From positions 1-64,000 of the forward strand of contig JAJFHU010000015.1 of the NCBI GenBank assembly GCA_021775455.1: a DNA stretch of 64,000 nt, written 5' to 3'. Source of the DNA: Hyphomicrobiales bacterium (GTDB lineage Bacteria > Pseudomonadota > Alphaproteobacteria > Rhizobiales > Rhizobiaceae). Of the stretch, positions 22,876 to 52,484 are shown piece after piece (position 1 is the first letter of the stretch; every line of letters begins with the position of its first letter). Under the pieces are notes generated by a model, which ran no database searches, was not told the origin of the DNA, and worked only from the letters and a program-made list of their open reading frames with translations. Both the position numbers and the translations under genes were made by a program.

Positions 22876-24249
22876 TTATTTGATGACTGTTTCCGGCCCC
22901 ATCATGTAATTCGGCAGAACGGTAGAGATCCACGGCACATAGGTTACCAGTATCAGAAACAGGAATAGTATGCCGAGCCAGGGTAGTGCGGCCCGCACGA
23001 CGCTCATCACTGGCATATTTGCTACCCCTGAAGTTACAAACAAATTAAGGCCGACCGGTGGGGTGATCATTCCGATCTCCATGTTAACCACCATGATGAT
23101 TCCCAGGTGGATGGGATCGATTCCCAACTCTATTGCTATCGGGAACACCAACGGCGCTACAATTATCAACAGCCCGGATGGTTCCATAAACTGGCCACCG
23201 ATCAGCAAGATAATGTTGACGACGATCAAAAACATCCACCAGCTAAGACCTGCATCCAACATTACGCTGGCAATATGTTGCGGGATTTGCTCTTCAGTCA
23301 GCACATGTTTGAGGATGAGCGCATTGGCGATTATGAACAGTAGCGTAATGGTCAGTTTGCCAGCATCAAATAATGTGTCTCGGGTATCAGGATGGAAAAA
23401 AGCTGTAACAAGTGCCTGAGGCTTGCGAAAAAGAGAAATGGATCCGCCGTCTGTGTTATTCAGTGGACCCATGTCGCGATAAACGAAATTCGCGATGACA
23501 AAAGCATATACAGAAGCGACAGCTGCTGCCTCCGTTGGCGTGAAGTAACCGCCGTAGATTCCGCCCAATATGATTATGATTAGCAGCAACCCCCAAAACG
23601 CCTCGGCACCCGAGGTGAGAATTTCCCCAATTCCCTTCCATTCACCTTTTGGCAGTTCCTTGAATTTGGCAACGATGTAAATGCCGACCATCAACATGCC
23701 GCCGGCAATCAGTCCCGGTATGACACCGGCAAGGAACATCCGGCCTACAGATACATCCGTTGCAGCGGCATAGACAACCATGACAATTGAAGGTGGGATC
23801 AGTATCCCAAGTGTGCCCGCATTACAGATTATGCCTGCTGCAAATTCCTTTGTGTATCCAACCTGGCGCATACCGGCGATGACAATTGTTCCGATTGCCA
23901 CAACTGTTGCAGGTGATGAACCGGAAAGTGCGGCAAACATCATGCATGCAAACACCCCGGCAATTGCCAAGCCTCCGGGTAGGTGACCAACGCAGGCAAT
24001 TGAAAACCGAATGATGCGACGGGCAACACCGCCAGTTGACATAAAAGAAGATGCCAGAATAAAAAACGGGATAGCCAGCAGAGTGTAGTGACCCTGAAAC
24101 GCAGAAAACAATGTTTGTGCAATTGATGCAAGTGAACTGTCCGAAAAAGTCAGCAGGAACAGGATGGATGCAAGTCCGAGAGAGACCGCTACCGGAACGC
24201 CCACAAGCAACAAAAGAATAATTAATCCGAAGAGGAGAACAACTTCCAT
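22876..24249 (-). CDS. TRAP transporter large permease (DctM)
   Basis: 457 residues, almost entirely hydrophobic, with about 12 membrane helices. Family signatures: GVPVAVSLGLASI near the start, FILASSFMSTGGVARRI, CAGTLGILIPPSI-like segment (CNAGTLGILIPPSIVMVVY) and GMITPPVGLNLFVTSG. A hydrophilic insert at about 255-295 makes it slightly longer than typical DctM. Inner-membrane Na+-driven substrate translocator working with DctQ and the periplasmic DctP. Start overlaps the DctQ stop by one base. The substrate may be an organic acid or zwitterion used by the neighbouring catabolic genes, but the sequence does not tell. Confidence 0.93.
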   Translation of the reverse strand: MEVVLLFGLIILLLLVGVPVAVSLGLASILFLLTFSDSSLASIAQTLFSAFQGHYTLLAIPFFILASSFMSTGGVARRIIRFSIACVGHLPGGLAIAGVFACMMFAALSGSSPATVVAIGTIVIAGMRQVGYTKEFAAGIICNAGTLGILIPPSIVMVVYAAATDVSVGRMFLAGVIPGLIAGGMLMVGIYIVAKFKELPKGEWKGIGEILTSGAEAFWGLLLIIIILGGIYGGYFTPTEAAAVASVYAFVIANFVYRDMGPLNNTDGGSISLFRKPQALVTAFFHPDTRDTLFDAGKLTITLLFIIANALILKHVLTEEQIPQHIASVMLDAGLSWWMFLIVVNIILLIGGQFMEPSGLLIIVAPLVFPIAIELGIDPIHLGIIMVVNMEIGMITPPVGLNLFVTSGVANMPVMSVVRAALPWLGILFLFLILVTYVPWISTVLPNYMMGPETVIK

Positions 24250-50632: not shown

Positions 50633-50812
50633 CTAGATCTTGCTTCCCAATCCGTAACGTATCTGTAGTCTGTCCATGGCAGATGGCATGAATTCCTGTT
50701 CCAACGGGCAGTATTTCTGCTCACATCCATGTTGCCTCCGGCATTCATTTTCAGAGGATGAAATCTTTACAGTTTGATCTATCTCTGCGCAGTACCTCGT
50801 TCCCAAGCTCAT
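50633..50812 (-). CDS. Small four-cysteine protein of unknown function, preceded by FNR box
   Basis: 59 residues; first part MSLGTRYCAEIDQTVKISS, middle ECRRQHGCEQKYCPLEQEF, tail DRLQIRYGLGSKI. Cysteines at 8, 24, 30 and 35 (C-x15-C-x5-C-x4-C) could bind metal or an Fe-S cluster. Support: GGAGGAG lies 7 nt upstream of the ATG, and a TTGAT-N4-GTCAA FNR box sits 61 nt upstream. With the box centred at -41.5, the start point falls near 50838 and an AATTTT element sits at the -10 place, fitting an FNR-activated promoter. It is divergent from the fnrL-type gene. No family recognised. Confidence 0.65.
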   Translation of the reverse strand: MSLGTRYCAEIDQTVKISSSENECRRQHGCEQKYCPLEQEFMPSAMDRLQIRYGLGSKI

Positions 50813-51215
50813 GTTGCAACTCCTCCATCAATCGTGATTGAAGCAAAATTGCAACTGTCAGGAGAATCGCCCTTGATCTGTGTCAATCGACTGTGAATTT
50901 AGAAACTGGCATCCGAACATTGAAATTCCGCAGAATAAAGCCATAATTTGGCATCCCTTTGGTGTATTGGAAGAATTCAACCTTCAGGAATTGCAACCCG
51001 CAAGTTGGCTTTAAGCAAACCTGACCGCATGATTTTCAAAATAATCTCCACGGCTACGGTCTGATCGCCTGCGTTCATTGAACAAAATCGGGTATCAAGC
51101 CTTTACCACTGCAACGAAAGAATTATTTTTCAGCAGCAAATTTTACTCCGATGGACAAGAGGACATGCTATTGGAGGCTTGCACACCGGACCAGTTAAAG
51201 TAAGTATGGCGATCA
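50813..51215. other. Intergenic control region between small Cys ORF and fnrL-type gene
   Basis: 403 nt without a called gene, holding the FNR box at 50873-50886 and the promoters of both divergent genes. The part from 50890 to 51215 shows no clear RNA gene or reading frame. The fnrL-type gene has only a weak ribosome site. Confidence 0.4.
50873..50886. promoter_or_regulatory. FNR box (TTGATCTGTGTCAA)
   Basis: Matches the TTGAT-N4-(A/G)TCAA consensus. It is 61 nt upstream of the small Cys ORF (minus strand) and 330 nt upstream of the fnrL-type gene, so geometry favours control of the small ORF. The regulator encoded next door has the FNR-type E-x2-SR recognition helix. Confidence 0.75.
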
Positions 51216-51947
51216 ATGGAAAAAAAAGATATTCATAATTCGGAAGTACCAGTCATCTGTCGATCTTGCGAAGCCAGACACCGTGGTATTTGCGGTGTAC
51301 TTGATCCCGATCAATTGATGAAGTTAGGCAAACAGACAACAAAACAAGTCCGCCGGGCAGATGAAGAACTGATATCTGCAGGGTCTGATGTTAGAACCTA
51401 TTCCAACATCATGAGTGGCGTGGTTAAGCTGACGAAGCTTATGGCGGATGGGCGCCAACAGATTGTGGCACTACAGTTTGCCCCTGACTTTATGGGACGA
51501 CCCTTTCACTCGCAAAGCGAGATATCCGCCGAAGCGGCAACAGAGGTTCGGCTGTGTTCTTTTCCAGCTTCAACCCTTGAGAGTTTGATAGCAGAATCAC
51601 CTGAACTGGAACGAAAACTTCACGAGCAAAACCTGAAGGAACTGGATGAAGCCCGTGACTGGATGCTTACATTGGGAAGAAAGACAGCGTCGGAAAAAAT
51701 TGCCAGCTTTTTTTACATGATTGCAAACCATGTCGATCCCGAGTTGGAAGTCGGCAATGGACCTGTGAAGTTTGATATTCCCCTAAAACGCGCTGACATA
51801 GCTGATTTTTTGGGCCTGACAATTGAAACAGTTAGTCGTCAGATTACCAAACTTAGAAAAGCTGGGGTATTTGAAATTGAAAACAACCGAACGGTTATTG
51901 TTCCCAAGATGAGCAAACTCAAAAATGCCTGCGAGGTGGAGCACTAG
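51216..51947 (+). CDS. fnrL: Crp/FNR-family regulator, FnrL-type oxygen sensor
   Basis: 243 residues. Cysteines 15, 18 and 26 (CRSCEARHRGIC) plus Cys114 (VRLCSFP) match the four ligands of the O2-labile [4Fe-4S] cluster of FnrL (CX2CX7C...C). The cyclic-nucleotide-like beta barrel lies at about 30-150, then the HTH, with recognition helix LTIETVSRQITKL (E-SR: recognises TTGAT half sites). It should activate low-oxygen genes; FNR boxes precede ccoN and the small Cys ORF. The 3' end overlaps the convergent hemerythrin-type gene by 4 nt. Confidence 0.92.
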   Translation: MEKKDIHNSEVPVICRSCEARHRGICGVLDPDQLMKLGKQTTKQVRRADEELISAGSDVRTYSNIMSGVVKLTKLMADGRQQIVALQFAPDFMGRPFHSQSEISAEAATEVRLCSFPASTLESLIAESPELERKLHEQNLKELDEARDWMLTLGRKTASEKIASFFYMIANHVDPELEVGNGPVKFDIPLKRADIADFLGLTIETVSRQITKLRKAGVFEIENNRTVIVPKMSKLKNACEVEH

Positions 51948-52408
51948 GTGCTACACACTTCAAGTTTTGGCAGCAAGTGCTCGGTATCAAAAGCAACATG
52001 TCGCCTAACGCTCTCAAAAAAGCCGCGCAACATGTATGCAAGGGTATCACTGTTTTCGGGTACCAGAATATACCGTTTCAAACATTCGCTGATCTCTTCG
52101 GCGAATGCTTCATCTTCCCAGTGTTCAAACTTTAACCGTTCGAAACTGTTCTTTAGTGCGGGGTCGGGATTATGCCCAGCCAATACCGGAAACAGCACTA
52201 TTTCTTCAAACTGGTGCGCTTTGTAAACTGCCGGATACAAAGATCGCGCCAACAGCAAGCATTCTTGCGTGTCAATTTTGTCCGGAAGACTGTCAGCAAC
52301 TTCCTCCAGGCGATCACATAAACAGAGAAGTTTCCGGTTATGTTGTTGCAACTCACAGCTGATTTTGATGCATTCTTGCGAAGTTGGATTTCGAATTGCG
52401 TCTGGCAT
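51944..52408 (-). CDS. Hemerythrin-like (HHE-domain) protein
   Basis: 154 residues. Candidate diiron ligands: HNRKLL early, AHQFEEIVLFPVL (H-x3-E), FEHWEDEAF (H-x3-E), and RRHVAFDTEHLLPKL. This is an all-helical HHE fold. Relatives bind O2, NO or iron, and some affect respiratory genes. Located between the fnrL gene and the ccoN promoter, with its start 62 nt from the FNR box at 52471-52484, so the box could act on both directions. Cytoplasmic; no signal peptide. Confidence 0.85.
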   Translation of the reverse strand: MPDAIRNPTSQECIKISCELQQHNRKLLCLCDRLEEVADSLPDKIDTQECLLLARSLYPAVYKAHQFEEIVLFPVLAGHNPDPALKNSFERLKFEHWEDEAFAEEISECLKRYILVPENSDTLAYMLRGFFESVRRHVAFDTEHLLPKLEVCST

Positions 52409-52470: not shown

Positions 52471-52484
52471 TTGATCCATGTCAA
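52471..52484. promoter_or_regulatory. FNR box (TTGATCCATGTCAA) before ccoN
   Basis: A TTGAT-N4-GTCAA site 89 nt upstream of the ccoN ATG and 62 nt from the divergent hemerythrin-like gene start. A TATGAT element at 52517-52522 could be the -10 of the cco promoter. Position and consensus are typical of FNR/FixK control of cbb3 oxidase operons. Confidence 0.85.

Follow-up and report, generated by a model that had tools for sequence, protein, structure and literature searches.

A 59-codon frame that lies divergent from an fnrL-like regulator gene in 64,000 nucleotides of DNA from a Hyphomicrobiales bacterium (contig JAJFHU010000015.1, positions 1 to 64,000, hereafter the window) is, judged by comparison between genomes, a real gene. 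Its product is probably a small metal protein, which would be induced at low oxygen from a class II FNR-type promoter and act as an accessory to low-oxygen metabolism. A first-pass annotation made from the letters of the window had described the 59-codon frame, its four cysteines and its GGAGGAG ribosome binding site, along with an FNR-type box further upstream. All of these are present at the positions given for them, and the features of the locus are as follows:

50633..50812, minus strand: gene for the 59-residue protein, with Cys 8, 24, 30 and 35 and His 28 invariant (18-genome alignment; dN/dS)
50820..50826, minus strand: ribosome binding site GGAGGAG, 7 nt 5' of the ATG (sequence)
50845..50850, minus strand: inferred -10 element AATTTT (A at -11, T at -7), with the start point near 50838 (position-specific signal in 18 promoters)
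50873..50886, minus strand: FNR-type box TTGACACAGATCAA, inferred centre at -41.5 (sequence; present in all 18 members)
51216..51947, plus strand: fnrL-like regulator gene, divergent from the small gene (NCBIfam FnrL, Pfam, neighbourhood)
51944-52408, minus strand: hemerythrin-domain gene (Pfam)

By itself, a frame of 59 codons is little proof of a gene. Here the frame, the cysteines and the box recur jointly in 17 other genomes, so that the frame and its cysteines prove to be conserved. The window protein contains CRRQHGC and KYCPL, and every one of the 18 genomes, including that of the window, encodes the motif C-x15-C-R-x2-H-x-C-x4/5-C-P-L. Ten positions are invariant across the alignment (M1, C8, V15, C24, R25, H28, C30, C35, P36 and L37 in window numbering). 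Additionally, dN/dS ranges from 0.13 to 0.43 in nine of 12 chosen pairs, the remaining three being saturated. It is because of the conserved cysteine motif and this constraint on the protein that we regard the small frame as a gene.

The family is sparsely distributed. With the window protein as the query, matches were found in 4 of 101 relatives, its own genome counted. Profile searches gave matches in 2 of 385 and 2 of 318 genomes at the level of the class (each match outside the window's own genome was dropped), in 7 of 249 at the level of the order, in 3 of 349 at the level of the phylum (two dropped) and in 13 of the 69 genomes of family f23. A further search of the order, covering 397 genomes, returned nine matches, one of which was dropped, and added no new genuine member. 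These genome sets overlap, and their combined total is 18 genomes with a member, 11 of them in genus g386 and the other seven in four genera and four families. The weakest accepted member has a profile E-value of 4.5e-14. Five weak partial matches with E-values from 1.5e-5 to 7.8e-4 were dropped before counting. The protein motif is absent from L014 and L034, none was seen in L006, and L121 has neither motif nor box; in L015, CRVIHGCGHKACPL lies between a stop codon and a long frame, apparently by chance, and the preceding 1.5 kb hold no exact box. No member was present among 55 candidate stretches from viral contigs, and a search of plasmids with the L021 member as the query gave no match. 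The scan of GTDB contigs used one peptide pattern, which reaches close relatives only.

Comparison of the upstream regions shows that the box accompanies the gene. An exact TTGAYNNNNRTCAA occurs within 250 nt upstream in all 18 members, a count from which the five weak matches lacking the protein motif had been removed beforehand. The distance from the centre of the box to the ATG is 41-67 nt in 16 members (about 67 nt in the window) and 165 and 168 nt in two g575 genomes. Within the window, TTGAYNNNNRTCAA occurs four times, compared to 0.53 occurrences expected from shuffles. The 3.51 Mb genome has 47 palindromic box sites, or about one per 75 kb, against 15 for a reversed-pattern control.

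The first-pass annotation had also guessed that the box is centred at -41.5. Measured 41.5 nt from the box centre, the predicted start point in the window falls near 50838. The AATTTT at the corresponding -10 position is weak, and at the small-gene locus a plain sigma-70 scan did not call any promoter on the minus strand. Across the family, the guess is upheld: when the members are aligned on the box, 13 of 18 have the -10 signature, A at -11 and T at -7, at the offset that matches a box at -41.5, whereas each of the other offsets between 10 and 35 shows it in at most two of 18. None of 5000 shuffles reached 13 (the maximum was 6), with the proviso that row-wise shuffles assume independence and several members are close relatives (11 of the 18 belong to g386). 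By group, the signature is found in 6 of the 11 g386 members and in all seven remaining members, and it is missing in five of the 18. These alignments point to a class II FNR-type promoter with its box centred at -41.5. By established FNR biology, a regulator of this type whose cluster is intact would bind there and activate transcription at low oxygen. In the proposed mechanism, the small gene would be switched on when oxygen is low by FnrL or by a different FNR-type regulator reading the same box, which could be one of the FixK or Dnr kind.

The window genome does have an FNR-type regulator, the FnrL-like gene itself; the presence of such regulators was checked within the window's genus. The FnrL of the window matches the NCBIfam FnrL model with an E-value of 9.4e-62 and 208 bits, below the cut-off of 300, and the start codons of fnrL and the small gene are 403 nt apart. 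Genes from 52574 onward read as a cbb3 oxidase operon, and the hemerythrin-domain gene sits between them and fnrL. Proteins that look similar by eye stand at the corresponding position in three of the genus's four other fnrL loci. An FNR-type box, TTGATCCATGTCAA, lies at 52471-52484, in the gap that separates the hemerythrin-domain gene from the oxidase genes, and an additional one, TTGACGACGATCAA, at 23216-23229. A perfect TTGATCCCGATCAA at 51301-51314 falls within the fnrL coding region, where it encodes part of LDPDQL and is probably a coding coincidence.

The neighbourhood itself did not prove to be a conserved feature. Five of the 12 genomes of the window's genus have an fnrL-like gene at E<=1e-20. 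For each of the other four we took its best-matching fnrL locus, and not the second, more distant FNR-like copy L115, and found neither a four-cysteine frame nor a box within 1.5 kb upstream of fnrL. The suggestion of a conserved linkage to fnrL and the cco genes finds no support at these four loci, and we rejected it: relatives of the small gene adjoin fds genes, a DUF6455 gene or unrelated genes. In the G008 member, for example, the gene lies elsewhere than beside fnrL, next to a VWA-like gene (below the Pfam cut-off), and in L029 and L030 it is divergent from a DUF6455-like gene. Among the genomes seen, adjacency to fnrL is peculiar to the window genome, and FnrL is the likely regulator of the small gene, not its conserved neighbour. 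Of the original interpretation, then, the gene, the conserved cysteines, the box and its -41.5 placement stand, and the idea that the gene belongs with fnrL and cco falls.

The box of the window lies between two divergent genes, an arrangement that would also be seen if the frame were untranslated and the box served the neighbouring gene or a non-coding RNA. We consider this highly improbable, as the relatives show constraint at the level of the protein and the four related fnrL loci have no box upstream of fnrL.

The fds loci, encoding NAD-dependent formate dehydrogenase, provide a natural control. In all 11 g386 members, the small gene immediately precedes fdsG and shares its strand, and fdsB, fdsA and fdhD follow fdsG where the contig and a simple gene caller show them (the Pfam evidence for these neighbours comes from L035). 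Such a placement fits a helper of a metalloenzyme. In family f23, fdsB was found at E<=1e-100 in 41 of 69 genomes. Locating fdsG by tblastn gave 37 fds loci with upstream sequence; G980, G986, G995 and G1023, of the 41 fds-bearing genomes, were left out of this test, and G980 has both gene and box. Within 700 nt before fdsG, the box is present at all 10 of the loci that have the small gene and at none of the 27 that lack it, which argues that the box accompanies the small gene rather than fds. The 27 loci missing the gene also count against an untranslated frame whose box serves its neighbour.

The constant position ahead of fdsG in g386 could alternatively mean that the protein serves the formate dehydrogenase specifically, as a small subunit or a chaperone. 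We find this quite unlikely, since 30 of the family's 41 fds-bearing genomes yielded no small gene and two family genomes that have the gene show no fdsB at E<=1e-100. Moreover, in the window genome the best FdsA-like match reaches just 36% identity and sits on a different contig, one without an exact box. Linkage to fds, seen in 11 of the 18 members, is not the consistent linkage or co-occurrence that would mark an Fds subunit or accessory. FdsD was also sought downstream of fdhD, with no usable result.

Some fds loci also have an upstream element of their own. Pattern searches found CTAT...ATAG...CAATTGG about 59 nt before fdsG at 7 of the 10 loci that have the small gene and at 3 of the 27 that lack it, which counts against a simple shared operon. 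Examples lie near 8212-8240 in L035 and near 8120-8150 in L036, with look-alikes recognised by eye elsewhere. As some loci have a LysR-type gene nearby, the element may be a regulator site. In the gap between the small gene and fdsG, a terminator-like hairpin was weak, found at one locus and no more frequent than in shuffles. The small gene may be co-transcribed with fds. Taken together, the patchy occurrence of the small gene and the separate fds element in some genomes indicate that the link to fds is loose.

No member has a meaningful match in the libraries searched (best E-values of 0.017 in Pfam, 0.13 in NCBIfam, 0.73 in the PDB and 0.053 in PHROGs). AlphaFold models of five sequences, poor models with a mean pLDDT of 56.5, place a hairpin at residues 5-16 and a helix at 21-28 with low confidence. 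The candidate metal ligands are the four cysteines and one histidine that are invariant in all 18 members. We propose that the product is a small, probably cytosolic protein in which the four cysteines, perhaps with the histidine, most likely form a single site for metal, either zinc or an iron-sulfur cluster. An iron-sulfur cluster held by these cysteines would also suit a small electron carrier, or a sensor labile to oxygen or nitric oxide, instead of a helper in enzyme building. The FNR-type regulation and the CP at the last invariant cysteine agree with such a role; a CP in this place is seen in many iron-sulfur proteins. Nevertheless, the invariant cysteines have no CxxC spacing and the protein matches neither ferredoxin nor any other family, so we hold a carrier or sensor to be unlikely.

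The reading that we prefer is of a metal protein that is most likely accessory, for example one that assists in assembling an iron-sulfur or molybdenum oxidoreductase or in keeping it active. Activation in the cell and metal binding would be parts of the same picture, and we propose the accessory role solely from the regulation and the neighbours. More tentatively, the 18 members may represent an undescribed family of tiny Cys4-His metalloproteins that come and go in genomes as one portable low-oxygen module with their own class II FNR-type promoter, land beside enzymes such as formate dehydrogenase and guard the iron-sulfur or molybdenum centres of these enzymes, or assist in building them, when oxygen is scarce.

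Annotation readily overlooks small proteins that belong to oxygen-response regulons. Because it is the promoter box and not the neighbourhood that stays with the small gene, searching for the box offers a way to such genes. Among fds-bearing relatives, those that have the gene and those that lack it can be paired naturally to compare what the protein does, and this comparison possibly concerns an enzyme in biotechnological use.

Hypothetical proteins have been placed under FNR-type control before. Table 1 of PMC2908626 includes four among the predicted FNR and FixK targets, and PMC4634722 has seven with such sites under 'function unknown'. These listings give no sequences, and any of the proteins in them might or might not be of this family. 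According to PMC2908626, regulators of the FnrL, FixK and Dnr kinds recognise very similar boxes. Our literature searches, which work by words and cannot query by sequence, brought up nothing recognised as this four-cysteine protein. The small protein belongs to a known kind, the small cysteine protein with an FNR-type promoter, and to a family that has no model in the libraries searched.

Apart from these regulon proteins, three known systems come closest. The fdsGBA and fdhD genes are neighbours in 11 of 18 members, but the small protein has no Pfam match and most fds loci seen lack it. The N-terminal iron-sulfur region of FNR-type regulators resembles the small protein by eye in being rich in cysteine and in having a CR with a nearby RH or H. 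Unlike that region, however, the small protein has no CxxC among its invariant cysteines, and a profile comparison with the window FnrL was not significant, so we rejected homology between them. DUF6455 (PF20056) is also small, of unknown function and endowed with four conserved cysteines, but their spacing, C-x2-C-x5-C...C, differs. Membership of the small protein in DUF6455 was rejected, as there is no profile match and the profile comparison gave a non-significant probability of 0.6%. Genes of DUF6455 were noted in L103, L104, L105, L108 and L109, and near 5935 in L029 and L030. FNR-type boxes lie 5' of DUF6455 genes in five of eight relatives, and in L029 and L030 one divergent box is common to the DUF6455 gene and the small gene. 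The low-oxygen regulon may thus include DUF6455 as another family with four cysteines.
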